Source of the DNA: a virus
Length of the DNA stretch: 64,000 nt
Virus record (IMG/VR): IMGVR_UViG_3300000172_000001
Coordinates: 1-64,000 of that record
Direction: 5' to 3' (one strand)
Position numbers and translations under genes: made by a program. Below, in pieces: positions 1 through 47,362 of this stretch; within the stretch, counting starts at the first letter, position 1; every line of letters begins with the position of its first letter. Under the pieces are notes generated by a model. It ran no database searches, was not told the origin of the DNA, and saw nothing but the letters and a program-made list of their open reading frames with translations.

Positions 1-2260
1 AGCTAAAGGGGTTCAAGGGGTAGACGGAGACCAAGGTGTCCAAGGACCTACTGGTTTTTCTGGACCAGACGGCCTTCAAGGTATAGATGGAGTTTCGGGA
101 CCTCAAGGGCCTTCAGGAATTTCAGGACCAGATGGAGCTCAAGGATTCTCAGGGCCTTCTGGATCTCAAGGGCCTTCAGGAATTTCAGGTCAAAGCGGTT
201 CTCAAGGATTACAAGGGCCTTTTGGATCAACAGGACTTCCCGGACCGACAGGGGCTTCAGGTATAAGTGGGGCTCAAGGGCTTTCTGGTCCCTCAGGAAT
301 TTCAGGACTTCCTGGGCCAACAGGGCCTTCAGGTATAAGCGGGGCTCAAGGGCTTTCTGGGCCTGTAGGATTTTCAGGCCCTCAAGGTGCAAGCGGTGTT
401 GTAGGATTTAGTGGTCCAGACGGAGTTTTAGGATTACCAGGAAGTGATAATTTAGTAACTAATTATGATTTTGAACATGCAGGTACTAATTTACCTGATG
501 ATGGTGGTATAATTTATGGCTGGATACAAAGTGCTACCTATTCTGTAGGAACTATAATGTCCTCTTTAGTTGACTTAGAGACTGGGCAGAGGAATACTAC
601 TGAGTCGAAGTCAGGGGAAATTTGTTTAACATTAAGTGATGGTCTTGGCCCAATTGATGGTTCCAACGTAATGACCCATCCAAATCATTTAATGCCTATA
701 TCTGATGATGAAAATTATTTTATATCTTTTTATCATAAAAAAACTAATTCTGAAAGTGCGGTGTCTGCTACACTTACTATAACTGAATGGGATATTGATA
801 AAAAATATATTGGTGAATTAGTAACTACAGAAACTTATAGTAGTTCTACTTCCTGAGCTAAAGGTTTAGCTATTATTGGTACCCATGTTGACACTTTAGG
901 TACCATTAATACTTCAACAAGATTTATAGGTATTACTCTAGCTAACGCTACAAGTTCAGAATCACCTGTATATGTAGAAGATATAAGGGTTAGTAGAGAA
1001 CTTTGAGCTGATTCAATTGCAATAGGAAAAATTAGTTCTTTAGATGGATCTACTTATTTTGATCTGGATAATAACGAAATAGGATTAGTGAGTGGATTAA
1101 ATACCGTAAAACTAAATGCCACGGATGGGCTGGTAGCAGAACATAATGGTATTAGACAATTTGACGCTGGGGTTAAAACTGGAAGAGGATACTTTAAAGG
1201 TGGCCATTTAACAGGTAGAATTGCCAGTATCCCTGAACATAACTATTCTTTTAATTTAGGAAACAACACATTTGCTGGAATAGAGGACATAACTATTACA
1301 ATCCCAGCTAATTATACCTTTGATGCTATATCTATGGTTTTTCTTAAAACAGACTTATTTATCTGTGGAGGATATACAGATGTACTGGGATTATCGTCTG
1401 TTCCTCGTATGTATAAAATAAATGTACATACTAAAACAGTTACTTCTCAAGATATTACAGTTCCTGGAGCTTCCACTACAGATTATCCAGCACTATACTC
1501 AATTACTACAGACGGCTCTCTGCTTTATACGGCTATTATCGATGACGAAACCGAAGAAAGCTATTTGTTTAGCGTAGACCCGGACGACATGTCAACACAT
1601 ACACACATTCATACGCTAGCAGTTGCCGCTTCTATGTTAATATGTGATGGTAGTAATATTTGATCGTGTAATGATGGTGCAGCTACTTGAGACACTAATG
1701 CTCTTGAGAAATATAGCATAGCAGGAGATTCCTCTGCTACTATTGCTGGATTTGATGGGGTAATGTGAACAGATCGTATATTATATGATGGTACTTATAT
1801 TTGAACAGCGGAACAAGGTACTTGAAATGGACTTCGTAAAATGGCAAAATATAATATTGACGGAGCGTCCTGAGATACCTCTCTTCCTGCGTGAGGAATA
1901 AAACCGATTTTTTATGATGGTATAGATGTCTGATGTTTTTATGGAGCATCACAATCAGCTAACCCTACATTAGCGCGTTTTAAGCAATCTGGAGATGTTC
2001 CATTTCAATGGCAATCATTGCTTGTATCTACGCAGGTAACTGGCGGGATATTTGCCGGAAGAAAAGCCTATTTAACATTAGCGTCTAGTGCTAGTTTAAC
2101 CATATTTAATACAGAAACAGCGGTAGAGGAGGGCAGTATTCCCGTAGGAAGTGCTTACGCTGGAATCAGAAACGCTGTGTGAGATGGTGCAAATATCTGA
2201 TTCCCTTCAACTAGTGGTGGTTCTGGAGAAAATTTAATTATTAGAAAAATACCAACTTAA
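1..2260 (+). CDS. Tail fibre / collagen-like adhesin, 5' truncated by the window edge
   Basis: The reading frame starting at base 2 is open to the TAA at 2258-2260 if TGA is read as Trp (about 752 codons visible). The first 150 residues are Gly-X-Y collagen-like triplets (GPQGPSG, GLPGPTG), typical of phage fibre shafts. A globular part follows, then a repeated pattern DG-x-x-IW (CDGSNIW, YDGTYIW, YDGIDVW, WDGANIW) that resembles beta-propeller or kelch blades, presumably receptor binding. Twelve in-frame TGA codons fall in the C-terminal half, many at the Trp of the DG..IW repeat, which is the clearest evidence that TGA means Trp. Two Trp are TGG. The gene runs with the next one in the late rightward module. 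Confidence 0.85.
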
Positions 2261-4051: not shown

Positions 4052-4148
4052 GGGTGCGTATTCCCATTTGGTTTATGGGAACGGTCTTCAAAACCGTATG
4101 CCGGGGTCCAAGCCGGTTATGAGGGTTCGACTCCTTCCGTGCCTGCCA
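4052..4148 (+). tRNA. UGA-decoding tRNA (anticodon UCA) with a tRNA-Sec-like architecture
   Basis: 97 nt including an encoded CCA. Acceptor 4052-4058 pairs with 4138-4144; the D stem is unusually long (6-7 bp, TTCCCAT/ATGGGAA); anticodon stem ACGGT/ACCGT encloses the loop CTTCAAA with anticodon TCA at 4088-4090; a long variable arm (CCGG..CCGG) follows, then the T arm GAGGG TTCGACT CCTTC and discriminator G73. Long D stem, long variable arm, length and the CTTCAAA loop are hallmarks of bacterial selC. The amino acid is likely Trp, because TGA codons in neighbouring genes sit at Trp positions. It lies between lysis genes in the module that uses TGA codons. Confidence 0.85.
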
Positions 4149-13573: not shown

Positions 13574-15913
13574 CTAAACTTCTTTTAAAATTTTGAGTAA
13601 AGCTTCTCTTTTATCTTCCCATCTGAATTTAGTTTCAACATTCTTAATACACTCTAGATTAATATCCTTTTCTTTGTCGGATTCTTTCCATTTTTTGTAT
13701 TCAATATCTAAAGCTTTCATCATTTCAAAAGGGTCTACCACTGGGCGTAAATGCCCATTATCCATAGACATATTAAATATTGCTAAATTAGGTACTATAT
13801 GCCCCGTGTCTCCTAACATTTCAGGAATAGCGCTATTTTTTGGGGCTATACTTGGAGTACCTGTTGCTGCCGCTTCAATTAATGATAAACCACAATTATG
13901 GACAGTTACTTGAGCGCAGGTATATGATTCTCCATTAGGTACTTCTAAATCATAGCCTAAAAATTTAGGACTATTTGAAAATTCATCTGAAGAACTTATA
14001 CTCTCAATAGGTAAATACACAAACTCTTTATCCATCTCTATATTAGAATGAGAAGTTTGGTCAAACACTAACGTTATGATGTATTTGTAATTCTCTTCCC
14101 TAATAAAGCTTAATAGCCCTGTACTCAAATATAAGTCTCTTAACAAGTATGCAAACTCTTCAGACTTAACTTCATATGATAAAGTATTTTGTCCGTGAAT
14201 TACATCAGACATTATACCATTTAGTAACTCTCCCCTTAATTCTTTATCTAATGCTAAAAAATATGTAGGAATAGTTCTTTCTGATGCTTTTTCTCCAAAT
14301 AGATGTCTAAATAATTTTAATAAAGGTTTTGCTGCTATTCTAACATAGCCAGCTTGATCAGAATATGTACCATCATATGAACCTTCTACATTAAAATATT
14401 TATTAAATATATAATCAACATACTCAAATAATTCTGCTTTTCTATGTTTAAAATTAAACATTATACCTCTATCTGTTACATGCCCACATCCTAAGAAAAT
14501 TCCAAAAAACTTTAAAATCTCCGCATTTATTGGTATGAACCTTTGCAAACTACTTCTTCGTTGTTTACTATTTATTTGGGTATCTGTTATTTCATAGTTA
14601 GGGTGTGGAAGTCCCATATCTGCTAAGTCTATTTGTGTTGGAATTTTATTTTTCCATTTAGGACGTCGTAAAGCTACTATGTCTCCGACGTTCAATAGTT
14701 CCGCACGCTTATAACTTTTATCTTTTAATAAAAAAGGATGATCGTGAGAACAAAGAATTGGTTTTGAAAACACATCCATAGTTATGGAATATATTTTTCC
14801 ATCAAAAGGAGTTCCTAATGTTTTCTTTACTTTCGACCAATTACCCTCGTCATTTATTACTTCATCTTCAGGGGTAACATGCTCTATTCGTTTATACCCA
14901 TCTCTACATAAAATTAAGGTGCCTTCGTTTAGTTTTCCTTCCCCTATTGTAGAAGATATATTAATATTTGAGGCATTATAAATTTTGTTAATTTCTGAAG
15001 AAGGTACTTCACCGCTGTATATATTCCTAGCATTTACTCCTAGTATAGTATCGTCCCCATCAGTGTCGCTATCTACAAATCCAGCATTTAATAAGTGATT
15101 CTGTAATAAGTTTGCGGCTCCTGGCCCCATAGTCATTTCTGCTGACATCATATGTAAATACAAATAAACGTCCCGTCTATTCCTTTTAACTACTTCTACA
15201 ATATCACTTTCAGGACACATATTTAAATCGCATTTTTTACGATTAATAGGCATATGATTTCCACATTTACAAACTTTGTACCCTTTTGCAAACATACTGA
15301 AGGCTCGTGCAGTTCCGGGTATAAACTTCCGTGGTTGAAATCTATTAACATTACAAACAGCAAACTTATTTGCCCATTTATAGTCTTTTCTTATTTCTTG
15401 GATTTTATCGTAAGGTAGTGGATAAAAAGTAGTTTCGTTTACACCATGGTATAATTTGTGTATAGGTATTTTGATCTCGTAAGTATCTTTTAAAATTTCA
15501 ATTGCCCAATCTGTGTAAGCTACTACTGCTGAGGAATGCTCAAATATTTTCTGCCATCCCACGCTAGGAGGTGTACCGTCTATAGGGAAATAAGATACTA
15601 TCTTAGTATTTGGTAATACTTTTTTTAATTCGGGAATGATTTCTGAAATATGGAAGATATCTTGAAATAAGAATATTACGTCAGGCTTTTCTGCTTGTGC
15701 AAGGGCACACAGTTTCTGGCCGCCCAGGGGATCTTCTTTAGTTACAGGGTATACGAAATATTTAGAAGTATCGTATTTAGTATTTCCAAAGTAGTTTATA
15801 CCTAGTATAGATACTTCATAATAATTGTGTAAATCTTTAAATAAGTTTTCAGCTACTATTCCGAACCCCGTCGGTACTAAAAAATCACTCCAGATAAATA
15901 ATTTAGGTTTCAT
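13574..15913 (-). CDS. GT4 glycosyltransferase interrupted by an intein
   Basis: 779-aa precursor. The N-extein (1-326) and C-extein (674-779) join to give a GT4 enzyme: FIWSDFLVPTGFG at the start, NRFQPRKFIPG at 190, and the donor-site motif STIGEG+CGLSLIEAAATG split by the intein. A Cys cluster near 215-233 (CKC..C..C) may bind zinc. Mature extein length would be 432 aa. First gene of the leftward glycosylation operon. The intein lacks the usual Cys1, so splicing may be impaired. Stop TAG. Confidence 0.8.
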   Translation of the reverse strand: MKPKLFIWSDFLVPTGFGIVAENLFKDLHNYYEVSILGINYFGNTKYDTSKYFVYPVTKEDPLGGQKLCALAQAEKPDVIFLFQDIFHISEIIPELKKVLPNTKIVSYFPIDGTPPSVGWQKIFEHSSAVVAYTDWAIEILKDTYEIKIPIHKLYHGVNETTFYPLPYDKIQEIRKDYKWANKFAVCNVNRFQPRKFIPGTARAFSMFAKGYKVCKCGNHMPINRKKCDLNMCPESDIVEVVKRNRRDVYLYLHMMSAEMTMGPGAANLLQNHLLNAGFVDSDTDGDDTILGVNARNIYSGEVPSSEINKIYNASNINISSTIGEGKLNEGTLILCRDGYKRIEHVTPEDEVINDEGNWSKVKKTLGTPFDGKIYSITMDVFSKPILCSHDHPFLLKDKSYKRAELLNVGDIVALRRPKWKNKIPTQIDLADMGLPHPNYEITDTQINSKQRRSSLQRFIPINAEILKFFGIFLGCGHVTDRGIMFNFKHRKAELFEYVDYIFNKYFNVEGSYDGTYSDQAGYVRIAAKPLLKLFRHLFGEKASERTIPTYFLALDKELRGELLNGIMSDVIHGQNTLSYEVKSEEFAYLLRDLYLSTGLLSFIREENYKYIITLVFDQTSHSNIEMDKEFVYLPIESISSSDEFSNSPKFLGYDLEVPNGESYTCAQVTVHNCGLSLIEAAATGTPSIAPKNSAIPEMLGDTGHIVPNLAIFNMSMDNGHLRPVVDPFEMMKALDIEYKKWKESDKEKDINLECIKNVETKFRWEDKREALLKILKEV
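13895..14935 (-). other. Intein with degenerate homing-endonuclease domain
   Basis: Residues 327-673 of the precursor. Block A is recognisable (LNEGTLILCRDGYKRIEH) but the first residue, normally Cys, Ser or Ala, is Lys (codon AAA at 14933-14935). Block B is LCSHDHPF; block F LGYDLEVPNGESYTC; block G TVHN followed by extein Cys. A LAGLIDADG-like motif (FFGIFLGCGHV) has Cys where the catalytic Asp is expected, and the second motif is also poor. The HEN is probably dead. Confidence 0.75.
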
Positions 15914-15962: not shown

Positions 15963-15999
15963 AAAAAAAAGGACCGATCCGAAAATCGGACCCTTTTTC
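15963..15999. terminator. Bidirectional terminator at the edge of the noncoding island
   Basis: A-tract, GGACCGAT, loop, ATCGGACCC, T-tract: symmetrical stem flanked by A8 on one side and T5 on the other, so it can stop transcripts in both directions. Leftward RNA coming from the island would end here. Confidence 0.75.
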
Positions 16000-16057
16000 T
16001 TAACTTGAGCTTGCACACTCGGAGTATTCCGATATTTTTAATAACCTTTTCCCAGAT

Positions 16058-16099
16058 TATACTAGAATTTTGGCCGGAGCGGCGGGCAAATCTAGTATA
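16058..16099. repeat. Inverted repeat, GC-rich hairpin
   Basis: TATACTAGA at 16058-16066 pairs perfectly with TCTAGTATA at 16091-16099 around a GC-rich loop (GGCCGGAGCGGCGGGC). Overlapping GTATAC/ACTAGT palindromes follow. Near the putative 3' end of a leftward RNA. Confidence 0.7.
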
Positions 16100-16597
16100 C
16101 TAGTATACCATTTTGGGGACGGGATTTCCTGAAGCGCTCTGAAGGCTGTGCGGCCTAAACGGCATCAGCTCGATCTGAGGTAGGCTTCGAAATCGTGGAC
16201 GTCTCGGCACGCGAGCTCATCCGGGCCCCGGGGGCCTTGTTGGCCAGTGGGCCGGCTGGATGAATTCACCACCATGTGGTTCTTCTGTCGACGGAGCGAT
16301 CGCCGATGACGGTCGCGGTCGCCAGCTGTTGACCGGTCGGTATGATCACGTAGATCTGGATGATGACGACGCGGCGAGTAGCAGGCCTACCAGTTGTCAG
16401 CATCTTCCTTAGTTAACGGCCATCATTTTCTACGGCGTCTTCTTTACCAGGTACCCTGGCGGACTGGGCCGGGCGGCAGGTGGGAGGAACCTTTTCGAAC
16501 ACGTGTCCAATTTGAGATCCGGATCCGGTGTCGGCGTACGCGTCAGCTGCTGCTGCAGTACTCTTCCGGAGGCGCCGCCGTCGGGCTTGATTCGAAT
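16095..16597. repeat. Segment saturated with palindromic hexamers
   Basis: By eye I count 33 six-base palindromes of 28 different kinds in 503 bp (about 8 expected by chance), such as AGCGCT, GACGTC, GAGCTC, GGGCCC, GAATTC, GTCGAC, CGATCG, ACCGGT, AGATCT, AGGCCT, GTTAAC, GGTACC, CACGTG, GGATCC, CGTACG, ACGCGT, CTGCAG, AGTACT and GGCGCC. Several extend to 8 or 10 bp (CCCCGGGG, GCGATCGC, GACCGGTC, ACACGTGT, CCGGATCCGG). Most occur once. Confidence 0.8.
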
Positions 16598-16655
16598 TAG
16601 TCTGGAAAGGATAGTAAACCGAAAAATGGAAATCCCAGAAAAAAGAAAATGTACT

Positions 16656-16753
16656 TGAAACACGGGGGACCTGTGGTAAAACGCTGGTAGGGAGCGGACC
16701 TTTCTCAGGGCCGTTCGCTACCCGGTTTTACCCGTGGTCGCTCCGTTGTTTCA
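16656..16753. repeat. Long imperfect hairpin, about 98 nt
   Basis: TGAAACA (16656) pairs with TGTTTCA (16747); GGTAAAAC (16675-16682) with GTTTTACC (16725-16732); GGTAG with CTACC; GAGCGG with CCGTTC; apex TTTCTCA. The overall size and shape resemble the msd stem of retrons, but no flanking msr features were identified. Confidence 0.7.
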
Positions 16754-17462
16754 TGTATCACTTTTCTTTTTGGGCGTTTTCATTTTGTTTACTTTCTTTC
16801 CATTTAAGTTCGAATCGGGTTATTTTTCTGCAAGGACGTAACATCCTTGTACAACGCTGCAAGCAAGTGCGTTTTTTTTGCGATTTCTCACACGTACCGA
16901 TGATTTTACTGTTATAAAATCTTCGGGACGACGTTCCTGAGATCCGAGAGAATGATTTTCGTGGCCAAAACGGTTCTCCGTAGTCATTCCATCATTTTTG
17001 GGGGTTAAAAACTTCCAAGTTGTTAACGCACAAAATGTGGAATACGGTGGAGACTGTTCTGGCGTATCGAAAAGCATTCTCGAGGTCCCGAAGGTCCGTT
17101 GTGTTTGGTTTTTGTTAACCTACTACGTAGCCGAAACAGCCACGCCGTCTATTTTGTATAGACTTTCAACTAAGAAAGCAGATAAGGAAAAAATCCCTAC
17201 CTAACACACTTTTGAAATTTTGTATATAGAGTCCCCACAACTCTTACTAGTTCCCATTCTGATTCCTTCGTTAGTCTAATAAGGGAACTTGAAGTAAATC
17301 TCCGTGGTCATAAGTGTTTAACCCTCTGGATTAAACAGTTTTAGCTCGGGGATTTGTTAGTTTGGGGTATTATTAGTTTTTTCCGTGTCCGAAGCAGACA
17401 CGACATTTATACTACGAGGATCGTTGATATAAATACAGCTAAGAGTTGTGAGGAAGAATTAG

Positions 17463-17660
17463 CTATTTGGCCTCTTCTAACGAAAGGACTCTATATTTCT
17501 TAATTATTCTTTTTAATTTTAATAAACTACTTCGAGCCATTTTGGCATATCTAACTTGCCATGTTTTGGCATATAATTGGTGAGCATTGCGAAAATTTGA
17601 AAATTCAATCGCTACGCTTTCATACGCTTCATTTAAATCACTAATTATTTCTTTATCCAT
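17463..17660 (-). CDS. Small protein of the RT operon, unknown
   Basis: 65 aa, helical and basic in the C-terminal half (RSSLLKLKRIIKKYR). Starts inside the end of the rad-SAM-like gene (8-nt overlap). Last gene of the RT operon, TAG stop. No family recognised. Confidence 0.55.
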   Translation of the reverse strand: MDKEIISDLNEAYESVAIEFSNFRNAHQLYAKTWQVRYAKMARSSLLKLKRIIKKYRVLSLEEAK

Positions 17661-18357
17661 TGCGTATATTGGTTATTGACGATCTCCAGCATTTTGAACA
17701 ATAAGAGCAACTTTCTTTATGCGCTAAAACCCCACTATCACATGGGCATTGTTCTTTAATTAATCTGGATTTCGCTCTTTCTTTTTGTTTTTTGGATATA
17801 TTGAAAAAGACATTGAACGGTTCGGTTACTTCGTTAAATTCATCCGCCATTCCTGTATAGCAAAAGCCTATTCTATCTTTTCCAAATAATTTTCCTAATT
17901 TTATGTAGTTTTGAAGATTTGCATTATCAAAACTTAATAGAATTTTTGTAACGTTTTGTGTTTTTAAGAGCTGACTTATATAAGTATAATATTCAGGTTT
18001 TGTTAAATTTTTGGATATGATAAAAAATTTAAAATCTAAATTTTGAATGAATTCCAAATGTTTTGGTTTAAAATCTCCTGATCCGTATAATCTTACGGGC
18101 ATTTTTCCTAATCTTTTATAAGATTTAGCTTTGCTTTTTGTCAGTTTTGTGTATTCAGTGTTCAGTTGCTGGGCGAACCCTTGTGGGTTTTCAGTTGCCC
18201 ATTGTGCGTTTCTCGTGATTTTATTGAGATAAGCAGAATAAATTCTTTCCATATTTTCGACATAACAGTATTCACATTTCTGTTCACATGTGAAATCTCT
18301 GTTAAAATCAACTGAAAGGATTGTTTTGCTATTCTCTGTAAACGCACGCAACTGCAT
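17653..18357 (-). CDS. Radical-SAM-like protein with a C-terminal Cys cluster
   Basis: 234 aa. FTCEQKCEYCYVEN near residue 23 is a CxxxCxxC 4Fe-4S/SAM motif of the radical SAM superfamily; MPVRLYGSGDFKPKHLEFIQ could be the GGE-like SAM-binding strand. A second cluster near the C terminus (CPCDSG..CSYCSKC) may hold another Fe-S centre or zinc. Phage proteins of this general type are known but substrates are not. Sits in the RT operon. Confidence 0.7.
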   Translation of the reverse strand: MQLRAFTENSKTILSVDFNRDFTCEQKCEYCYVENMERIYSAYLNKITRNAQWATENPQGFAQQLNTEYTKLTKSKAKSYKRLGKMPVRLYGSGDFKPKHLEFIQNLDFKFFIISKNLTKPEYYTYISQLLKTQNVTKILLSFDNANLQNYIKLGKLFGKDRIGFCYTGMADEFNEVTEPFNVFFNISKKQKERAKSRLIKEQCPCDSGVLAHKESCSYCSKCWRSSITNIRNG

Positions 18358-18370
18358 AGGCTACTGTGGT

Positions 18371-18607
18371 TTAGAATACAGCGTGGCTCTCGTTGGTGTA
18401 CTTCATATCTATACCCTTCATATAATGTTCATGGGTGATTCCTACGATTGACCTCAATCTTGAATCTCTAATTTTCCTTGATATATCCAGGGCGTATATT
18501 ATGCCGTCAACTGCCGGGTCTGCCGGTACTTTGACATATAATATCCTGTTGGTACTTTTTTTCTTTCCGGTCTCTAAAACTATCTTGTAATGTTTATATT
18601 TTCTCAT
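18371..18607 (-). CDS. Small basic protein of the RT operon, unknown
   Basis: 78 aa, start 2 nt after the stop of the small membrane protein. Contains KKSTNRILYVKVPADPAVDG and a helical middle. No recognised domain. Confidence 0.55.
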   Translation of the reverse strand: MRKYKHYKIVLETGKKKSTNRILYVKVPADPAVDGIIYALDISRKIRDSRLRSIVGITHEHYMKGIDMKYTNESHAVF

Positions 18608-18609
18608 TA

Positions 18610-18744
18610 TTAACTGTCACTTGAGTTGTCGCTAGGTTCTTCGGTTGTCAAATCAATAACTTTGGTTTCTGCTAATAGGATTGCAATTTTTGCAAAAGCT
18701 ATTATTAGCATCAGTCCAATTGTTTTGCCTAGCTTGACGTCCAT
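18610..18744 (-). CDS. 44-aa membrane protein of the RT operon
   Basis: ATG at 18744, TAA at 18610-18612. One hydrophobic helix (residues 9-25, IGLMLIIAFAKIAILLA) followed by an acidic Ser-rich tail. It begins 14 nt after the TGA that ends the RT frame; this arrangement argues that TGA is a true stop in this operon. Confidence 0.6.
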   Translation of the reverse strand: MDVKLGKTIGLMLIIAFAKIAILLAETKVIDLTTEEPSDNSSDS

Positions 18745-18757
18745 TTCTTTTAGTGCC

Positions 18758-19648
18758 TCATACTACATTCATTTTAGCTATTTCATCTATAAATTTTTGC
18801 CCTTGTTCAGGATTTAAAAATCTAATCCATTCGGCATAACCTCTTAATTGCTGGTATTCCCTTTCTGTTATGTCGACGTTTCGTTTTTGATGTAAAATAG
18901 CTCTAAATATTTTTCGTTTATATTTTGGAATACCGTATTTGTCGTTTATTACGATTCCAGTTACTGACATCCGTCTATGCGGCCTCATAATTCTAGTCTT
19001 TTTGTAATTTAGTTTAAAATGATATTTTTGTACCATTTTGGTAATTTCTATTATATGATCCAAAAGCGGATAGCGTTTGGAGAGATGACTAAAACTAATA
19101 TCGTCAGCGTATCTAGTAACTATTAGTTTATTTTGTTTTGCAAAGTCTTGTAAATCTATATCCATTTTGTAACATACTAAATTAGCCATAGCCGGACTCG
19201 TAGGAGATCCTTGCGGTAATGCCCCATTTAGCGTAATTAAAGACGTAAGTAGTCTTGCGTCTGCTTCATCCCATTCAAGGGTGTGTTGGTTATTATAACT
19301 ATGAAGCCTCTTAATCATTTCAGGTAAAACCATGCTAGCTGTTACAGAATCGAAAAAACCTCTTAAATCTATATTTAATAAAGTCTTATTTCCAAAATGT
19401 CGTTTAGCACCTTCTTTTACGCTGATATTACGTCTAAACCCTACCGCTATCGGGTGGGTCTTAAATTTATATAAGAAATTATTTAAAAACTTTGTTTGAA
19501 CTTGTTTTAAAGCCTCAGACGGCTCATTAAGCCACCTTAATTTTCCAGACTTTTTTGTAATCGGGAACCTTCTATACTGCTTTATTTTAGTAGTTACTAA
19601 TTGTTCTATTTCAGTTTTTGGTGTTTCTATTAATTCGTAAATTGTCAT
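18758..19648 (-). CDS. Retron-type reverse transcriptase
   Basis: 296 aa, size of retron RTs. RT motifs in order: LNIDLRGFFDS (91-101, first catalytic Asp), ALPQGSPTSPAMANL (143-157), RYADDISFS (179-187, YADD catalytic box), KLNYKKT, and VTGIVIN (239-245) that matches the VTG motif of retron domain Y; then QLRGYAEWIRFLNP, common in retron thumb regions. No clear NAxxH domain X was found. No maturase or endonuclease domain, so not a group II intron. Its ATG overlaps the previous gene (ATGA), and it ends in TGA. It likely copies an RNA encoded nearby; the 1.45-kb island downstream is the candidate. Confidence 0.85.
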   Translation of the reverse strand: MTIYELIETPKTEIEQLVTTKIKQYRRFPITKKSGKLRWLNEPSEALKQVQTKFLNNFLYKFKTHPIAVGFRRNISVKEGAKRHFGNKTLLNIDLRGFFDSVTASMVLPEMIKRLHSYNNQHTLEWDEADARLLTSLITLNGALPQGSPTSPAMANLVCYKMDIDLQDFAKQNKLIVTRYADDISFSHLSKRYPLLDHIIEITKMVQKYHFKLNYKKTRIMRPHRRMSVTGIVINDKYGIPKYKRKIFRAILHQKRNVDITEREYQQLRGYAEWIRFLNPEQGQKFIDEIAKMNVV

Positions 19649-19977
19649 TTGTTAAAAAGATTATATTGCCTTAATAAAGCGTCTGCGTCCTCTTCAAGAG
19701 ATACACAATACTTACTAAGAACTTCTAGTAAATCATTTTCTGTTATCATACTGGAGGGGGTAAGTCCTAAATGTATAATTTTTAATTCTGGAACATTGCT
19801 ATGAAATGTATAAAATATAGTATAAACCATATTAAATGCATTCTTTTTCACTGCAATATCTATTTTTGTTATAAATTTAGTATTTAAATGTACACAGGCC
19901 CCGTCCTTAGTTAGATTCGGTAGATGAGGACTTATCTTCTCCATCATTTGAATCTTTAATTGTTTCGTTGTCTTCAT
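19645..19977 (-). CDS. Protein coupled to the RT, unknown
   Basis: 110 aa, ending in TGA that overlaps the RT start codon (ATGA), so translationally coupled. Mixed alpha/beta, no motif recognised. If TGA were Trp, only four residues would be added before a TAA. Probably an RT partner; that is inference from coupling. Confidence 0.65.
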   Translation of the reverse strand: MKTTKQLKIQMMEKISPHLPNLTKDGACVHLNTKFITKIDIAVKKNAFNMVYTIFYTFHSNVPELKIIHLGLTPSSMITENDLLEVLSKYCVSLEEDADALLRQYNLFNK

Positions 19978-20065
19978 CGTTGTATACTAGTTCTATTGTT
20001 AATTCAGTTATATCTTGTACCGTTTTCGTAATCAGTTTTTTAATACGTTCTTTCTTCTCATTCAT
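19907..20065 (-). CDS. Possible 52-aa acidic protein overlapping the RT-partner gene
   Basis: ATG at 20065, TAA at 19907-19909. Helical Lys-rich start (EKKERIKKLITKT) then an acidic Ser-rich tail (DSNDGEDKSSSTESN). It overlaps the following gene by 71 nt in another frame, which weakens the call. Confidence 0.35.
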   Translation of the reverse strand: MNEKKERIKKLITKTVQDITELTIELVYNDEDNETIKDSNDGEDKSSSTESN

Positions 20066-20096
20066 TTTATTTCTTTTGATTACAATAACTTAATGT

Positions 20097-20131
20097 AAAA
20101 AAGAAATCAAGCGATGTTGACTTCTTTTTTT
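20097..20131. terminator. A/T-flanked hairpin between RT operon and small gene
   Basis: AAAAAAGAAATCAA, loop GCGATG, TTGACTTCTTTTTTT. Symmetric A- and T-runs allow termination in either direction. Confidence 0.55.
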
Positions 20132-20156
20132 ATAGCGTGTATTTTTTTTATTTTAT

Positions 20157-20273
20157 TTAGTCTTTTGGTGGAGTAAATATTTCGTCATTTGCGTTCTCAT
20201 TCTCTCCATCTGTAATTCTTTTTCTTGCATTAAAAAATATCAAGCTCTTGAATATATAAATTGGGATGAACAT
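20157..20273 (-). CDS. 38-aa membrane protein
   Basis: ATG at 20273 with an excellent Shine-Dalgarno (AGGGAGG, about 10 nt upstream), TAA at 20157-20159. N-terminal hydrophobic stretch FIPIYIFKSLIFF then a charged tail. Its promoter region is shared with the divergent RNA polymerase gene. Confidence 0.55.
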   Translation of the reverse strand: MFIPIYIFKSLIFFNARKRITDGENENANDEIFTPPKD

Positions 20274-20317: not shown

Positions 20318-20388
20318 TTAAAGACAAAGTTTAAAATGCAGATAGGTTCTTCATCTAACTTCTTATACCATAAAAATTTAAAAACAAT

Positions 20389-23300
20389 ATGGCAGATTTA
20401 TTAAATTACAACAAACAGAACTCAAATATCCAACAGGCTATCCTAAAGTCTATAAATAACGTTTTTCCAGTCACCGCCGGTGATAGAACTCTAGAAATAG
20501 CTAATTTAAAAATAGTTGACAATCTTAGTTCTGACGATTTCCCTAAACAGAAAGAGTTAAAAATCAATAGGCGTAGCTGACAAATACCTTTATACGCTGA
20601 TATACTTTTAAAAGATAGCACTGGAAAAGTTATTAACCAAAAAAAGAATGCTAAGATAGGAAATATCCCTAAATTAACAAATAGGTTTACTACTATTATT
20701 GAAGGAAATGAATACCAAACCGTTAATCAACTTCGAAGAAAGCCGGGTATATATGCTCGTATTAAGAAGAATGGTGAGTTAGAAAATGAATTCAATTTAG
20801 AAAAAGGTCTTAATTTTAAAATGCAATTAGATCCTATTTCTGAAAAATTTGTAGTTATTTTCGATAATAGAAAATATAGACTCTGAACTTTATTAAATTT
20901 ATTAGGTGTAGGCGATGAGGCTATGCGTAAGGTTTGGGGTACCAAACTATTAGAAGTTAATAAGAAGAATGCTCTCAACACAGAAATTTCTGAAATGACT
21001 TCTATTTTCACTAAAATTTATCATAGAGATCCTAAAGACTACTCAGAAGTTCTTACCAAATTAAAAGACTATTTTGAAAACTTCACTAAAGTAGACCCCA
21101 ACACTACCCTCTTAACTTTGGGTCGAAAACACTCTAATGTTAATGGACAAGCTTTACTAGACTCTTCTAAGAAATTATTAGATATTAATAAAGGTACAGC
21201 AGAACCAGATGACAGAGATAGTTTAGTTTTTAAACAAATTTTATCAGTAGATGACTTACTTATTAATCATTTTGATAAACAAAAAGACTCTCTTACTAAA
21301 AAATTACGATCATCTATGATGTTCAAAGATCAAGTACGAGAAATAGTAAGTGCTGGTACTTTTTCAAAACCTATTAAACTATTTTTTACTACTGGCGATT
21401 TAAGCTCAACTCCTCCACAAACAAATCCTGTAGCTATTGTATCCGAATGAAGAAAAACCTCTCCTATGGGTACTGGTGGAATAAAAAGTAAGCACTCAAT
21501 TACTGAAGAAACTAGGGATGTACAGCCTACACACTTAGGGTTTATAGACTCTACAGCTTCTCCAGAAGGTTCAAAAATTGGAGTAACTTTAGGAATGACC
21601 TCTGAGGTTGTTAAAGAAGGTAATGAGCTGAAATCTCCAGTATATAATACTTCTGGTAAACTAGTATATATTAGTCCTTTAGAATTCTTTGAAAGTTATG
21701 TAGTGTACCCAGATCAATATGAAATATCTGGCTCTACTATTACTCCTAAATTTAAGTCAATACACGCAATGTATAAGGGTGAACTTATACGTATTGCCCC
21801 AAGTAAGGCTAATTATTATATAAGGTCTCCAAGATCAATGTTTTCTTTTGCCGCTAATGCTATTCCATTTTTAGACGCAGTTCAGGGTAATAGAAGTGCT
21901 ACTGGTGCTCGTATGATGACTCAAGCTATGGCTTTAGATAATAAAGAAGCTCCTTTAGTACAAACCTATAGAGATAAAGATTCTACTTATGAAAAGATTC
22001 TTGGTAATTTTCTTAATCCAGTATACGGACCTAATTTAAAAGGGAAACCTCGTACTGGAACAGTTAGTAAAATTACTAAAGATTATATTTATATCATTGG
22101 AAAAGATGGATCTAAAACTAAAAAAGGTTTATATAACAATTTCCCATTAAATCAAGATGGTTATTTAGATTCTACTCCTTTAGTAAACGTGGGAGATGAG
22201 GTTAATAGTAAAACTATATTAGCTGAAAATAATTATTCCAGTGGAGATACCCTGTCTATAGGAAAAAATTTAACTACAGCCTATATGACTTATAAGGGTT
22301 ATAATTATGAAGATGGCGCTGTAATTACAGAATCAGCTGCTAATAAACTTTCTCATTCTATGCTCCATAAAGTAAATGTATTTTTTACTCCTAAATTATC
22401 TGCATTTAGTTTAGAAAAATTTAGTGCCTGGTACCCAGACGCTATAACCCCAGATAATAGAAAAAAATTAGATAGCTCTGGTATTATTAAGGTAGGAGAA
22501 ACAGTTAATCCAGAAGATGTATTAATTGCATTTTTAGTTAAGCGTGAAATGGACGACCATGAGGTAGCTTTACATAAATTAAGTAAATATACTTTTGGAC
22601 AATTTAATAAAAATTTAACTGAATGGTCTGAAGATGAGCCGGGAGTGGTAACTGATGTAGTTAAGACTGGTAGAAACATAGATATTTATGTTAAATCTAC
22701 CCATCCTTTTAAAGAAGGTGATAAACTTTCTGGGCGTTATGGTAATAAATCTATTGTTACTAAAATTATTCCAGACGCAGATGCCCCTCATAGAGAGGAT
22801 GGTACCCCTATTGACATAATGTTAAATGCTCATGGAGTTCCTTCTCGTATGAACATTGGTCAAATTTTAGAGACGGCAGCTGGTAAAATTGCTAAAAAAA
22901 CTGGTAAACCTTATATTGTTAAGAATTTTAATAATCCAGAAGGTGACAGATCTGCAGAAGTTTTAGCAGAAATGAAAGAACTTGGTATAGAACCTGATGA
23001 AACTTTAACAGATGGTAAAACTGGCAAAGCTTTTGATAATCAAATTTTTGTAGGACAACAGTATTTTTTCAAACTTCGACATATAGTCAACAAAAAATTA
23101 GGGGCTCATGGTATCGGCCAATATGATATAGACGAACAGCCTGTAGGAAAGGGTTCACAGCATGTAGGGATTTTAGATAATTATGCATATCTGGCCCACG
23201 GAGCAAAAGCCAATTTACGAGATATTGGAGAGATTAAAGGAAGGTCTAACGATGAATACTGAAGAGACCTACAATTGGGACTGCCGCCTAGTAAGCCTTC

Positions 23301-26300
23301 TAGAAACTTTGTATTTGAAAAGCTAACAACCTATATTCAAGGTCTAGGTGTTAATGTTACTAAAAAAGGTAATAAACTACAAATTTTACCATTAACTGAC
23401 AAAGATGTTACTAAGCTGTCTAATGGCGCATTAGAAAAGCCAGGAACTATGTTAGTTGGTAAAAATTTAATGACTAGAGCCGGTGGATTATTCGATGAAA
23501 AGATTACTGGTGGAATTAGCGGCACGTTATGGTCTCATATTAATTTAGCAACTAATTTACCTAATCCTATGTTTGCTCCTGCAATTACTAAAATATTAGG
23601 TATTACTGACAAGAAATATAGCGACATTATAGATGGGAAATTAAAGCTAAAAGGTAAGTCTGGAATTCCGGCTATTATCTCTGCTTTAGAAGCCTATGAT
23701 GTTGACGCTGAGCTTGTTAAGGCTACAGCAGCTTTAAAAACTGCCCCTGTATCCTCGGTGAATAGTTTAAATACTAAGGTTAGGTATCTACAAAATTTAA
23801 GTAGAATGAAATTAAACCCAAAAGAAGCCTATACTATTACTAAAATACCAATATTACCTCCTAAATTTAGACCTATCTATTCTTTACCTACTGGTGATTT
23901 AATGACTAGCGATATCAATAAACATTATAGAGATATTGGGGTTATAAACACAGCTTTAAAAAGTACTAAAGATATTATAGGCGCAGATGAGGTTTTAAGA
24001 GCTAATAGATCATTGTATGATTCTGTAAGAGCTATGCAAGGTTTTATAGAACCTATAACCTATGGCGGTGAAAAGTATAAAGGGATTTTAGAAGAAATAG
24101 GAGAAAGTAAAAAAGGCTTAATACAAGGAAAATCCTGGGGCAAGCGTCAAGACTTAAGTGCTCGAAGTACTATCATTGTTGACCCCGATTTAGGTCTAAA
24201 TGAGGTAGGTACTCCATTTAAAATAGCTTATTCTATTTATAAACCTTTTATTATAAAGAATTTAAAGGAATTTGGATTAAAAGCTACAGCCGCAGTAAGG
24301 GAATACAAAGATGAAACTGATTTAGCAAAATCAGCTCTCGTTGATGAAATGAAACGTAGACCCGTAATTATGAACAGAGCTCCTACACTTCATAAGCATG
24401 GAGTTCAAGCTTTTAAACCTCAATTAGTAGATGGTAAATCTATTAGAATGAATCCTCTTGTTATGAGAGGTTTCAACGCTGATTTTGACGGCGATACTAT
24501 GTCTGTAATGGTACCTGTTTCTGCTGAATCTGTAGAGGAAGCTAAAAACATGATGCCTAGCAAGATCTTATTTAAGCATGGAGATAACTCTATTGTTCCA
24601 GAGATTAGTAAAGAATATGTTTTTGGAATACACCAGCTAAGTCTTATTAAAGAAAAATCTAAAGAATCTTTTAAATCTATTTCTGACGCTAAAAAAGCCA
24701 AAATTCCATGGACTACTCAGTTTGATCTTAACGGTACAAAAGTGACTATAGGGCAGTTTTATATTAATTCTGAATTACCTGAAAAATTAAGGGATTACGA
24801 ACGAGTATTAACTGCTAAAGTGTCTGAAAAACTTTTAACCACTATCGCAACTACTTACCCTAATTATTTTACAGATGTAATTAATTCTTGGAAATCTTTA
24901 GGAGCTATGCAGGCCACTTTACATGGCAATACCTTATCATTAAATGACTTTGTAATAGATAGAGCCTATAGAGATGATCTTTTAAAAGAAAAACTTCCTG
25001 CAATTAATAAATTAAAAGGGCAGACTAGAATTGACTCTTTAAACAAATTAACTATAGAAGTTCAAAAAGCTCAGGATAAAAGTGTACGGGGTAGAAATAA
25101 CATCTACGACATGTTGGATTCAGGCTCATTTGGTAAAACTGATTCTGTACGACAAATTTTATCTATGCCTGGGGTTCTAATGGACACCAAAGGCCGTCCT
25201 ATCCCCTATCCTGTGTTAAAATCGTATGGAGAGGGTTTAGATACCCCTTCTTATTTTGCGTCCTTATATGGAGTTCGTAAAGGTAATATTGACAGGTCCG
25301 TAAATACAGAGCAATCTGGTGCTTTAAACAAAGCGTTATTAAACATTAATAGACGTTTGTTAATAACTGTAGAAGATTGTAATACTCGTAAAGGTTTAGA
25401 AATTGGCGTAAATGACAAGAATGTTATAGATCGCATGTTACTTAACTCTGTATCGGGTGTGGGGAAAAGAAATGACATTGTAGATTCAAATGTTTTATTA
25501 AGAGCTAAAAAGGATAAATTAAAAACTCTATGGGTTAGATCGCCATTAACTTGCGAAGCAGTTGAAGGGATTTGTCAAGCCTGTTATGGGTTAATGCCTA
25601 ATGGAAAATTATCTGTATTAGGAGAAGCGGTAGGAGTATTAGACGGACAGGCCATTACCGAAAGATCTACACAATTAGTTATGCAAACTTTCCATACAGG
25701 GGGAACTGCCTTAGGTGGCGGTGGTGGTGGTGCTGTAACTGGTTTCCCACGTTTAAAACAATTATTTTTTGTACCTCAAAAATTAAGTGGAAAAGCTACG
25801 TTATCTACTGTAAAGGGGACTATAAAATCTATTAAGAAAAATCTTACTGGAGGGTACTCCGTTAGGATAGAGGGTTATGGGGAAAAGAATGATAAAACCT
25901 TTACTATACCTTCCGGTAGACTGCCTATTGTAACAGAAGGAGTTAAAATAGGAATTGGAGACGCCATATCTGATGGAATTATAAAACCTCAGGAACTTGG
26001 AGAATTAAAGGATCACTTATCAGCTCAGAAGTATTTAGTAGAAGAAGCTTCAAAAGTTTATGGGGGAAAATTCTTTAATAAAACATTTGAAACCGTAATT
26101 CGTGGAATTAGTGATAATGCCCAAATTACAGTAGCTCCTGAGGGTAGCGGATTCCTAAGAGGAGATAGAACTACTATAAGTTATTTAAACGCTCTAAACA
26201 AAGATAGAAAAAAAGAAAAACTTCCATTAATCGAATATGACGCATATTTTAAATCAATAGACTCATTAAATGCTGATAGCGACGATTGGTTAACTAGAGT

Positions 26301-26448
26301 TAGTGCGAACAGAGTAAAACGGGGCTTAACTGTAGGAGCTGCAAAAGGCTTATGAGCTAACATTCGAGGTAAAGACCCTGTACCAGCGTTCATTTATGGA
26401 GATAACTTTGGTAAAAACACTAATTATCAAAAGGGGGAATTCTTTTAA
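20389..26448 (+). CDS. Phage multisubunit RNA polymerase, beta and beta-prime fused in one frame
   Basis: With TGA as Trp a single frame of 2019 codons runs from ATG 20389 to TAA 26446-26448; five TGA (codons 64, 166, 354, 958, 1989) would otherwise break it. The first ~960 residues are beta-like (GTGGIKSK, RDVQPTHLGFIDSTASPEG, YNYEDGA, GDKLSGRYGNKS, GKGSQHVGI). The rest is beta-prime-like: RRPVIMNRAPTLHKHGVQ, catalytic NADFDGD at 1363-1369, AVGVLDGQAITERSTQ, TFHTGG of the trigger-loop region. The junction (RSNDEY-W-RDLQLG) has no stop. Both subunits are compact versus bacterial ones. It would transcribe middle or late phage genes. Weak ribosome site. Confidence 0.85.
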
Positions 26449-43422: not shown

Positions 43423-43959
43423 TTATTCTTTATATAGTTGATGTCCTATAATATAGCCAAAGATACTTCCGTCGAGTAATCTTCCAGCCAACTCATACTC
43501 AGCTTTACAAATGTGTTCTCTAACTTTACCGCTACTTGCGTGAGTATACTCTGAAATCTTTCCTAAATCAATCGACTCTATAGCTGCGCATTTTTTAATT
43601 TCATCAATATCCTGCCACTTATGAACTTCTAACCCAGTATCATCATCGCCTACATAAATTACAATATTCACATTATAATACATAATCTGTATATGATTAA
43701 TTAAACTCATCATATACGTATGGTTATAATGTAATATAAAGTTATTTGGGAAAGCTTTAGCACACATTGCTACTTTGTCGTTGTAATCGCTTTGAAGAGG
43801 TTGTTCTATTTTAAAGGGATTAAATGACGGGCAAATAAGTAATAAATCTGAACTAGGGTATTCGGAGTTATATATTTTATTATTTAAGTATTCAACAGCT
43901 GCCATATGTCCCAAGTGAGGAGGATCAAATGACCCCCCGTATATGTGAATTGTTCTCAT
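43423..43959 (-). CDS. nadD: Nicotinate/nicotinamide mononucleotide adenylyltransferase (NadD-like)
   Basis: 178 aa. GGSFDPPHLGH at the N terminus is the HxGH nucleotidyltransferase motif, and ASSGKVREHI fits the ISSTxIR C-terminal signature. It joins NaMN (or NMN) and ATP to give NaAD (or NAD). Start overlaps the preceding stop by one base, in an operon with a Nudix hydrolase and NadE. Confidence 0.8.
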   Translation of the reverse strand: MRTIHIYGGSFDPPHLGHMAAVEYLNNKIYNSEYPSSDLLLICPSFNPFKIEQPLQSDYNDKVAMCAKAFPNNFILHYNHTYMMSLINHIQIMYYNVNIVIYVGDDDTGLEVHKWQDIDEIKKCAAIESIDLGKISEYTHASSGKVREHICKAEYELAGRLLDGSIFGYIIGHQLYKE

Positions 43960-44552
43960 TATTTCATCCTTATATATTCGTAATTTGGAGATTCCATAAA
44001 AGATAATCCTGCTGCAAATGACAGAAGTCTGCTTGAGATTTCTACTTTTTTTGCTTTTTCAGAGGCTATGAAACTAAGTAAATTATAACCATTAATTAAG
44101 ATTATTTGGTCTATATCTTCAAAGTCTCCTAACGACTGTTGCTCTGGTAAGTAACTTCCTAAAGCTCCCATTACTAAATGAGTTGCTTCATCTGACATTC
44201 CTGCGGTATTGATGGCTGCAGGAAATACTCTACAAGCCCCGTCTACTTCATATCCAGTTTCCTCCAACAATTCTCTACGCATAGCGTCTTCTGGAGTTTC
44301 TCCCTCTTCTATCATACCTGCTGGAAATGACCAAATGTAGTTATCTAACGCAGGTCTCCACTCCTTAATTAGTAAGAATCTTCCAGAGCGGTCATGAAAT
44401 ACTCCCGCTACAGACTTTTGGTTTCCAATTCTTCTAACTATTTCCCAATCAGTAGTTTCTCCAGCTTCATTTTCTAGATTTAATGTTTCAGCTATTACAT
44501 GTTGGGGCTCTATTAAAGCGTCTGATACAAATTTAATCTTAATTTTTGGCAT
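43959..44552 (-). CDS. Nudix hydrolase (ADP-ribose pyrophosphatase-like)
   Basis: 197 aa. Nudix box GMIEEGETPEDAMRRELLEETG at residues 94-115 has G-x5-E-x7-REUxEExG. WSFPAGMIEEGE is typical of ADP-ribose pyrophosphatases. It would hydrolyse ADP-ribose, removing a product of NAD breakdown. Operon with nadD-like and nadE. Confidence 0.8.
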   Translation of the reverse strand: MPKIKIKFVSDALIEPQHVIAETLNLENEAGETTDWEIVRRIGNQKSVAGVFHDRSGRFLLIKEWRPALDNYIWSFPAGMIEEGETPEDAMRRELLEETGYEVDGACRVFPAAINTAGMSDEATHLVMGALGSYLPEQQSLGDFEDIDQIILINGYNLLSFIASEKAKKVEISSRLLSFAAGLSFMESPNYEYIRMK

Positions 44553-45343
44553 TAGGCTATGTCCCTTAAAAAGCTTGGAATATTATCGCGTTTATGACGG
44601 CTATTGTTTATCATACTTTCGATATTATTCATAACTTCTACAGAAACCGGAGATGGTACATTTTCACAGTCCATAGTACTCCACCAAATCAAATAAGAAT
44701 CTAGTTCTTGGTATGTAAATCCAAATTCTTGTTCATCAGTTTGTCCTTCCCATAATCCCGCAGAAGCTACCGCATTTGCATATTCGTTAGGTAGCTCTAA
44801 TTCTCTAGCTATTTCTCTAACTTCAAATTTGTAAAACTCTAACAATGGTTCAAAATCTACTCCACCGTCTCCATATTTAGTAAAGTACCCTATTTCGTAT
44901 TCAGACTTGTTAGTTGTTCCTATTACGAGGTTATTGGTACTATTTGCTAGCAGGTACAGTGCAGACATGCGGGCCCGGGCTTTCATATTCCCTTTTGTGA
45001 GGGTAGTTATTGCCTCTGTTTGGATATAAGTCATACCCTCTATCATGGCGTCTACAGAAGTGGTAATATCTATACAATTAAGGTTTAATTGGAGATGTTT
45101 TGCAAGAGCTAGTATATTATCAGCTCCATGAAATAAATTAGATATTGAGGGAATAACTGTTTCATGGTAAGGCAGCCACACCGCCATAACCTTCTCTGGC
45201 CCTAAAGCTCTTTGAGCTAAAGCCGCAATTACTGCGGAGTCTACTCCTCCAGATAATCCTATGACTACCCCATCAGCACCTGCATCTTCTACTGTTCTTT
45301 TTATAAAATCTTGTAAGTCAATTATGTCTTGTCTAAGTTTCAT
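44552..45343 (-). CDS. nadE: NAD synthetase, ammonia-dependent
   Basis: 263 aa, the length of short NadE without a glutaminase domain. VIGLSGGVDSAVIAA (residues 26-40) is the PP-loop; KARARMSALYLLAN and GTTNKSEYEIGYFTKYGDGG are NadE signatures. Converts NaAD and ammonia with ATP to NAD. Third gene of the coupled NAD operon. Confidence 0.9.
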   Translation of the reverse strand: MKLRQDIIDLQDFIKRTVEDAGADGVVIGLSGGVDSAVIAALAQRALGPEKVMAVWLPYHETVIPSISNLFHGADNILALAKHLQLNLNCIDITTSVDAMIEGMTYIQTEAITTLTKGNMKARARMSALYLLANSTNNLVIGTTNKSEYEIGYFTKYGDGGVDFEPLLEFYKFEVREIARELELPNEYANAVASAGLWEGQTDEQEFGFTYQELDSYLIWWSTMDCENVPSPVSVEVMNNIESMINNSRHKRDNIPSFLRDIA

Positions 45344-45360
45344 CTGTTTTCCTTTTTAAA

Positions 45361-45759
45361 TTAAGCAAAGCAGTTGTTTAATATGGTAACCGCCCTGTGT
45401 ATGTTGTTATCTATGTAAGCTATTCCTCCTGCAGCATTTACTAACTCTACAGTAGCTTTTAAACTTTTGAGCTGTCCTTTATCAAATCCATCAGGCCTAA
45501 CGTGCAATATAGTTCGTTTGCCGTGGGTGTGTGCGCTATTTACAACTTCTGCTATGGAAAATACTCCTTGCATTTCTTTAGAAATAAGATAAAAATGTAC
45601 ATTACATTTATTGTCTTTTTCATCCATTTCTATTGCTTGGCACGCCTCTGTCCAGTCTTCCACATCTGGATTAAAGTAGTCTATAGTTAGTTGAGGAATT
45701 ATTTGATTCCTCCAGGTTGTATGTGCGCAAGTGCCTCCTAAAAATACTCTGTTTATCAC
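45361..45759 (-). CDS. Nucleoside 2-deoxyribosyltransferase-like protein
   Basis: 132 aa with GTG start (45757-45759). VFLGGTCAHTTWRNQIIPQL, DYFNPDVEDWTEAC and EMQGVFSIAEVVN match PF15891-type 2-deoxyribosyltransferase-like proteins, whose fold is related to SLOG. The real substrate is unknown; the location beside NAD genes suggests a nucleoside or NAD-derived ligand. GTGA overlap with the upstream stop. Confidence 0.65.
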   Translation of the reverse strand: MINRVFLGGTCAHTTWRNQIIPQLTIDYFNPDVEDWTEACQAIEMDEKDNKCNVHFYLISKEMQGVFSIAEVVNSAHTHGKRTILHVRPDGFDKGQLKSLKATVELVNAAGGIAYIDNNIHRAVTILNNCFA

Positions 45760-45917
45760 TGTTCCTTTCCTTTTTTACTGTTTAAATCATCTTGGATATT
45801 GTTATAAGTTTTTAACAATTTAGCTTTTTCTTTGGCTCGTTTTTGATCATCTCCAATAGCCCATAATTTTAGAAACCCAGTCCATGTGACTTGTGGTTTT
45901 TCTTTCTTTTCTTTCAT
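45756..45917 (-). CDS. Small basic protein, unknown
   Basis: 53 aa. Starts at ATG 45917 and ends in TGA overlapping the GTG of the next gene. Helical Lys-rich (KEKKEKPQ, QKRAKEKAKLLKTYNN). Confidence 0.5.
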   Translation of the reverse strand: MKEKKEKPQVTWTGFLKLWAIGDDQKRAKEKAKLLKTYNNIQDDLNSKKGKEQ

Positions 45918-45936
45918 TTATCCTCTTTGTTATTAG

Positions 45937-46059
45937 TGGCTAGGACAGGACTCGAACCTGCATACGCACCATGCGTCCACTATATAGTATATCTACTGAA
46001 GTGTTACTGAGTCGAACAGCCTACTACGCGAAGATGTTTCCCAATTACATCACCTAACC
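45937..46059 (-). tRNA. tRNA-like gene with a large insertion in the anticodon domain (123 nt)
   Basis: Acceptor GGTTAGG/CCTAGCC, D arm GATGT/ACATC, T arm GCAGG TTCGAGT CCTGT. Between them lie about 75 nt containing a T-arm-like CTG-TTCGACT-CAG and a hairpin AGTA-GATA-TACT. A possible anticodon stem CGCGT/GTGCG encloses about 50 nt. No anticodon can be assigned; could be a tRNA with an intron-like insertion or a remodelled tRNA. Confidence 0.5.
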
Positions 46060-46069
46060 ATTTTTTTTG

Positions 46070-46142
46070 TGGGCCCTGCTGGACTCGAACCAGCATCCTA
46101 CACATTATGAGTGTGTTGCTCAGCCAATTGAGCTAAAGGCCC
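46070..46142 (-). tRNA. tRNA-Met(CAT), elongator
   Basis: Acceptor GGGCCTT/AGGGCCC, stem ACACA/TGTGT, loop CTCATAA. Confidence 0.9.
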
Positions 46143-46235
46143 TGGAGGAGAGGACAGGGATCGAACCTGCAGACCCCCTTGCGGGGGCGCACCGGTTTTC
46201 AAGACCGGCAGAATACCATTCTCTTACACCTCTCC
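46143..46235 (-). tRNA. tRNA-Ser(TGA)
   Basis: Acceptor GGAGAGG/CCTCTCC, loop CTTGAAA, long variable arm (CGCCCCCGCAAGGGGG), CCA encoded. Directly abuts tRNA-Met. It reads UCA codons, not UGA. Confidence 0.9.
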
Positions 46236-46329
46236 GTAAAGAGCGACGCGATACTTTTTTCTGCAGTTATTATATTGCGCGCTCCCATCTCCTTCTGCTC
46301 TTACACGCAAGCGATGGCAGATGAGTCTG

Positions 46330-47252: not shown

Positions 47253-47272
47253 TTTTTAGTTCCTAAGTTAAT

Positions 47273-47360: not shown

Positions 47361-47362
47361 CG

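Follow-up and report, generated by a model that had tools for sequence, protein, structure and literature searches.

A 64,000-nucleotide stretch of viral DNA (positions 1 to 64,000 of IMG/VR record IMGVR_UViG_3300000172_000001; hereafter the window) carries the operon of a retron reverse transcriptase (RT) and, at its end, a noncoding island of about 1.5 kb (17462 to 15914). The GC-rich 3′ part of this island is packed with different restriction-site palindromes and is referred to here as the polylinker core. About 17 relatives of the window phage likewise carry a palindrome-packed noncoding gene beside the RT. We lean toward the view that the locus is a phage retron with an RNA-encoded library of type II sites, which would be reverse-transcribed into decoy DNA that titrates restriction enzymes. 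Retrons are known as bacterial defense systems, and the role of those borne by phages is poorly understood. The source record is a 102-kb virus contig, and the same phage is also represented by a 205-kb contig. The stretch is 100% identical in three other assemblies, and a fourth is identical over the part that it covers; the island is therefore not an assembly slip in a single sample.

No convincing open reading frame (ORF) was found from 17462 to 15914 with translation table 11 or table 4, and Rfam gave no match in the island. The polylinker core (Table 1) has a GC content of 0.58, as compared to 0.36 for the genome. Its 33 palindromes fall within 561 bases, for which base composition predicts 9.1 and an order-2 Markov model predicts 10.4 ± 3.4 (z = 6.7). 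The sites include ACTAGT, AGCGCT, TTCGAA, GACGTC, GAGCTC, GGGCCC, CCCGGG, GCCGGC, GAATTC, GTCGAC, CGATCG, CAGCTG, and ACCGGT, and also, in a list that is not exhaustive, TGATCA, AGATCT, AGGCCT, GTTAAC, GGTACC, CACGTG, TCCGGA, GGATCC, CGTACG, ACGCGT, CTGCAG, AGTACT, and GGCGCC. Among 7205 GC-matched control windows of 400 bp, the mean is 5.0 palindromes and the maximum 19; the 28 of the window core are unequaled. No other palindrome peak in the 205-kb contig comes near that of the core (p = 3e-9; runner-up 5e-5). A genome-wide palindrome excess was rejected, the contig being slightly depleted (3683 versus 3877 expected). A preliminary description, made from the sequence alone, had reported the RT operon, the gene-poor noncoding island, and a bidirectional terminator, all of which are present, but it overlooked the dense array of different restriction-site palindromes, the main feature of the island. 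The 5′ part of the island (16600-17462) is folded far better than shuffled sequences (z = -8.4), whereas the GC-rich 3′ core is not (z = 0.0). The 5′ parts of the islands in relatives give fold z values of -1.0 to -3.9 against shuffles. A single-sequence reading of the island as structured RNA only was rejected, because the palindrome core is no better folded than shuffles.

Relatives were collected by searches with the RT, the RNA polymerase (RNAP) fusion, and GP88. Sixteen distinct phages have a syntenic RT flanked by the genes for the RNAP and the glycosyltransferase. The RTs of the relatives are 36-51% identical to that of the window, and gene order is mostly kept, usually as RNAP ← MoxR–VWA–RT–p187–small transmembrane (TM) protein–p78–GP88–small basic protein–island → glycosyltransferase. 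A palindrome core is found in the islands of 14 of these 16 phages (z = 3.1-7.7 each). The preliminary description had raised an RT consistently lacking the island as the outcome that would count against it; 14 of the 16 syntenic phages and most of the divergent ones have an island. No palindrome core was found in RNAP relatives without the RT. Core-to-core homology between phages was rejected: besides the shared terminator end, only matches of 11-18 bases occur, and the cores cannot be aligned. In the near-identical phages L029 (near 9705) and L042 (near 10087), a unit of about 31 bp containing CCTAGG is tandemly repeated in the polylinker core, and the two phages differ in copy number by one 31-bp unit.

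The polylinker occurs in two positions relative to the RT. In the window clade, the island lies at the operon end, 1.3 kb downstream of the RT. The polylinkers of L223, L030, L237, and, in a shorter form, L079 occupy the classical position of a retron RNA, directly upstream of the RT. The L223 polylinker contains 31 palindromes in 300 bp as compared to 4.6 expected, with the RT starting at 6908; the signal is weaker in L222 (z = 2.9). In the RT tree, L237 and L079 pair outside the window clade, and the association between RT and polylinker thus extends over two RT lineages. Two gains, losses, or transfer could account for this distribution. Approximately 70 viral and 80 bacterial retron loci showed no such palindrome core. 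The few high peaks among the bacterial loci come from genomes rich in GC, and comparison with order-2 shuffles reduces or abolishes them. Two bacterial retrons, L139 and L184, were rejected as polylinkers, since their peaks lie in GC-rich coding sequence and are gone against order-2 shuffles; a moderate palindrome excess remains in L178 and L196. No polylinker was found at the RT loci of Machias, LPJP1, SA 1306 Kay, or fecal phages, and a search by DNA similarity found no related cultured phage.

The pooled cores reveal which property of the sequence is under selection. Together, the 18 non-alignable cores contain 422 Watson–Crick hexamer palindromes versus 144 expected (z = 24.2). Hexamers with one G–U pair in the same cores number 169 versus 170 expected, and other one-mismatch hexamers are near or below background. 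In a set of 14 cores, 4-bp palindromes that are not part of a hexamer do not exceed background (333 versus 358), 8-bp palindromes are as numerous as chance extension of hexamers predicts, and gapped palindromes (gap of 1-11) are near background, as compared to z = 23 for uninterrupted hexamers. The repertoire of these 14 cores, with 313 distinct palindromes versus 290 ± 6, is more varied than random drawing, and all 64 hexamer palindromes occur across the pooled cores. The commonest are TTCGAA, CTGCAG, GGATCC, CCCGGG, GGCGCC, AGGCCT, GAATTC, and GCATGC, which we take to be common type II specificities. Hexamers provisionally classed as having no known enzyme number 23 versus 15.6 expected, and the other hexamers number 343 versus 116.5, a difference in the predicted direction. 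Exact 6-bp palindromes in duplex DNA are the recognition sequences of many type II restriction and modification enzymes. That only exact Watson–Crick hexamers are enriched thus points to selection on duplex 6-bp palindromes rather than on RNA self-pairing or shape. As judged from these sequences, strong and repeated selection for varied 6-bp duplex palindromes in the cores is shown.

By sequence and predicted fold, the RT is an ordinary retron RT. Its best PADLOC matches are retron RT models (E down to 7.5e-70), the nearest types being II-A, III-A, X, and XIII, and a profile of RTs from 15 relatives matches the Ec86 RT at approximately 1e-58. The VTG/ITG motif is conserved across 15 aligned RTs. 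For an AlphaFold2 model of the RT (pLDDT 92), the top 17 PDB fold matches are all retron RTs; enzymes of group II introns, DRTs, and DGRs rank lower. Membership of the RT in the DRT, UG, or Abi groups was rejected, as DRT2 and DRT9 fall far below retrons by fold and profile. The earlier statement that no known layout of RT and RNA resembles this one is half right, in that nothing but the downstream placement of the island, in the window clade, is out of the ordinary. In one locus, L125:5436-6629, the RT frame is broken by an insert of approximately 300 bp with stop codons beside YADD.

The islands also carry features of retron RNAs. G-NUU-C triloop hairpins number 22 and occur in 14 of 20 islands, as compared to 0.65 ± 0.75 in shuffles. 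The loop recognized by the Eco1 RT is UUU; U is needed at its second and third positions, while the first position tolerates other bases (PMC11754653). The NUU triloops of the islands match the loop needed by the Eco1 RT, and the hairpins of these RT-linked islands are msr-like. The island had been proposed to be the template or a cofactor RNA of the RT; this role is well supported, indirectly, by the co-occurrence of RT and island in distant phages, by the upstream position in L030, L223, L237, and L079, and by the shared triloops. In L023:9469-11906, the polylinker is preceded by about 1.3 kb through which five G-NUU-C hairpins are scattered, an arrangement that suggests several successive msr-like units.

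These observations allow us to propose a mechanism. The RNA would consist of a folded 5′ part, then the polylinker template, then the terminator. The retron RT would bind the NUU-loop hairpins in the folded 5′ part and copy the polylinker into many DNA copies. These could turn into recognizable duplexes as RNA:DNA hybrids, by mutual annealing, or by second-strand synthesis. The duplex copies would then be bound or cut by host type II restriction endonucleases instead of the phage genome, the outcome being a sequence-coded, broad-range restriction decoy. The polylinker and the retron are linked in these genomes; that the island is transcribed, that the RT copies its core, that duplexes form, and that they act as decoys are steps that we infer from sequence. 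Type II enzymes can recognize and cut RNA:DNA hybrids (PMC9605241). Retron RTs usually lack RNase H, and a host enzyme strips the RNA (PMC8989520); with this step left to the host, RNA:DNA hybrids would be present at least for a time. The element is phage-borne, and the locus is conserved like core phage genes, so it probably serves counter-defense rather than defense. DNA methylases of PF01555, PF00145, and PF02086 were not found in the phage contigs tested, and self-methylation by these three families is thus no obvious alternative. More generally, we consider it probable on balance that the locus provides RT-driven, sequence-programmable anti-restriction. A fast-evolving RNA site library would give rise to many copies of a decoy DNA, to which restriction enzymes (or methylases) would be diverted, and the polylinker would record the specificities met. 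The RT chassis is a known one, and for its payload and the proposed decoy-DNA counter-defense we found no described counterpart; by title and abstract, none of the papers found in literature searches on phage decoy DNA and retron anti-restriction describes such an element.

Several observations weigh against the decoy proposal. Retron DNA is normally left single-stranded once its RNA has been removed by host RNase H1, and palindromes on an unpaired single strand do not constitute restriction sites. None of the operon proteins accounts for second-strand synthesis. Whether a hexamer is chosen bears no relation to how under-represented it is in the phage genome (p = 0.84). Pairing of the a1/a2 ends is significant only in L079 (z = -3.2), with no consistent pairing elsewhere. 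In L099 (L099:1910-3923), a syntenic GC-rich island beside the RT has no enrichment of hexamer palindromes (z = 1.1); L098/L113 have the syntenic RT and no island; and L219, L220, and L224, with divergent RTs, have no polylinker.

The main rivals of the decoy proposal are a restriction sensor and a methyltransferase sponge, both of which likewise require that the polylinker be recognized in the form of DNA. In a sensor, the multicopy single-stranded DNA (msDNA) complex would hold a partner (the 44-aa TM protein, gp88, or p187) inactive; cleavage of the polylinker by whichever restriction enzyme the host has would free this partner, such that restriction is blocked or the infection program runs faster. 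Known retrons act as guards that free an effector once the msDNA is disturbed (PMC12887533, PMC13405049). The many different sites would fit a broad sensor, and small operon partners do recur with the RT. However, none of the partners p44, p78, gp88, and p65 matches a known retron effector, and p187, an operon protein of the relatives, matched no known fold in a structure search. The partner genes also come and go (the window lacks p187, and L030, L098, and L223 lack gp88), and a sensor would not need dozens of sites. We regard the sensor as possible but unlikely. Multicopy sites could instead titrate the modification enzymes of the host, leaving an undermethylated host genome to be cut by its own restriction enzymes. 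Methylases recognize the same 6-bp palindromes, and the sequence evidence does not separate a nuclease decoy from a methylase decoy. This sponge nevertheless seems distinctly unlikely: it has no direct support, and a host needs new methylation only after replication, which would make the effect slow in a lytic infection.

The enrichment, being a property of duplex DNA, would also fit a polylinker that acts only within the phage genome, as a sacrificial site cluster or a methylation receiver, with the nearness of the RT incidental. We consider this improbable. Next to the many sites already present in approximately 200 kb, those of one genomic copy count for little, and their cleavage would occur in cis. 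The core accompanies the RT in either of two positions and in two RT lineages, and the islands carry retron-like hairpins. A role at the RNA level, in which self-complementary hexamers drive RNA dimerization or condensation, would fit the noncoding and structured nature of the region. It is hardly credible given the lack of enrichment of G–U hexamers, free 4-mers, or 8-mers beyond chance and the unremarkable folding of the window core. Finally, the core looks like the multiple cloning site of a vector, as would be expected of vector sequence or a chimeric assembly. The relatives refute this artifact, leaving it a negligible chance: 18 different sequences stand in matching places on separate metagenome contigs with conserved phage genes flanking them, and the window version recurs unchanged in other assemblies.

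Table 1. Features of the retron locus in the window.
Feature	Position	Strand	Remarks
Promoter-like motif GGTATAAGA	20361..20369	(-)	upstream of operon
52-aa ORF	19907..20065	(-)	first in operon
110-aa ORF	19645..19977	(-)	4-bp overlap with RT
Retron RT	18758..19648	(-)	296 aa; YADD, VTG, C-terminal LRGYAEWIR; Pfam RVT_1 E=4e-22
44-aa protein, single TM	18610..18744	(-)	place taken by 42-aa ORF in L017
78-aa protein	18371..18607	(-)	kept alongside RT in most relatives
GP88-family radical-SAM-like protein	17653..18357	(-)	PF17338 E=1.3e-8; C24-x3-C28-x2-C31
65-aa basic protein	17463..17660	(-)	weakly Hc1-like; Pfam Hc1 E=0.064, below cut-off
Structured 5′ part of putative noncoding RNA, msr-like	16623..17462	(-)	RNA fold z = -8.4 for 16600-17462
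G-CUU-C triloop hairpin CGUGUCUG-CUU-CGGACACG	17384..17402	(-)	resembles RT recognition hairpin (Eco1 P3 loop, NUU)
Polylinker core	16063..16622	(-)	33 hexamer palindromes, 28 different, 33% of bases
Bidirectional intrinsic terminator	15974..15992	(.)	closes island

The operon reads p52–p110–RT–p44 (one TM)–p78–GP88–p65 on the minus strand, followed by the island. Of the genes named in the preliminary description, the RT with its YADD and VTG motifs, the coupled 110-aa partner, the 44-aa membrane protein, and the radical-SAM-like protein were all recovered; a 38-aa membrane protein was not found as such, its slot being occupied by the 78-aa protein. The 110-aa ORF is kin to an ORF upstream of MoxR/VWA in the relatives, and the MoxR/VWA genes themselves are absent here. 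The GP88-type protein has a C-terminal Cys cluster, and its cysteines are conserved in an alignment with relatives. Small basic proteins fill the slot of the 65-aa protein in the relatives. The motif GGTATAAGA also stands at the 5′ end of the island in several relatives; by itself, its frequency in the window is not above chance. Radical-SAM-like proteins of differing kinds recur beside polylinker retrons, being found at 17653-18357 (-) in the window, at the islands of L026 and L028, and in an unrelated phage (L237:3838-4647). The neighboring glycosyltransferase gene (13574-15913, minus strand) is split by an intein of approximately 330 aa that is absent from the relatives L010, L011, and L017.

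Other features of the window concern translation and metabolism. TGA is apparently recoded to Trp in plus-strand (late/structural) genes, and most minus-strand genes have no internal TGA. The fused RNAP (20389-26448, plus strand) reads through 5 TGA codons and a structural gene (557-2260, plus strand) through 12. A tRNA with a tca anticodon (4052-4148, plus strand) lies near TGA-containing plus-strand genes, and the window holds approximately 25 tRNAs in all. It also encodes a phage transfer-messenger RNA (30299-30670, minus strand) with the tag GRPAVKLAA and a group of genes resembling NAD-synthesis genes (43423-48760, minus strand), identified by eye as NadE, NadD, and a phosphoribosyltransferase.

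If the decoy proposal is correct, a phage-borne retron would have a specific, testable role in countering the defense that bacteria use most commonly. To our knowledge, it would be the first retron to have its function explained by its cargo sequence and the first nucleic-acid decoy against restriction enzymes, and the contents of polylinkers could reveal the restriction specificities of uncultured hosts. The element shares with retrons of the Ec86/Eco1 type its RT family and fold, a noncoding RNA adjoining the RT, and NUU-triloop hairpins. It differs from them in a noncoding region of 0.2-2.4 kb with many different restriction sites, in the downstream placement of the RNA in the window clade, in having no known effector, and in being phage-borne. 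In the cultured jumbo phages Machias (Staphylococcus) and LPJP1 (Listeria), a retron-type RT likewise adjoins a noncoding region of 1.1-1.2 kb full of hairpins, but this region consists of repeated AT-rich hairpin units directly upstream of the RT, with no palindrome enrichment. These arrays (L133:8246-9347 in Machias and L134:8328-9536 in LPJP1) are possibly multi-unit retron RNA arrays. In DRT2 and DRT9, too, an RT uses a neighboring noncoding RNA as its template; those systems make repeats or homopolymers as a bacterial defense and hold no site library, whereas the RT described here groups with retrons. The proposed outcome, restriction enzymes occupied by a decoy, is that of T7 Ocr and ArdA, which are proteins; the decoy proposed here would be an RT-written nucleic acid, sequence-specific for type II enzymes. 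In sequence, the element resembles the polylinkers of cloning vectors, with their dense, overlapping, and mostly unique 6-bp sites (e.g., GTGCACGCGTACGGCCGGC in L223). Unlike those, the polylinkers described here are natural, have evolved many times, and are tied to a retron RT.

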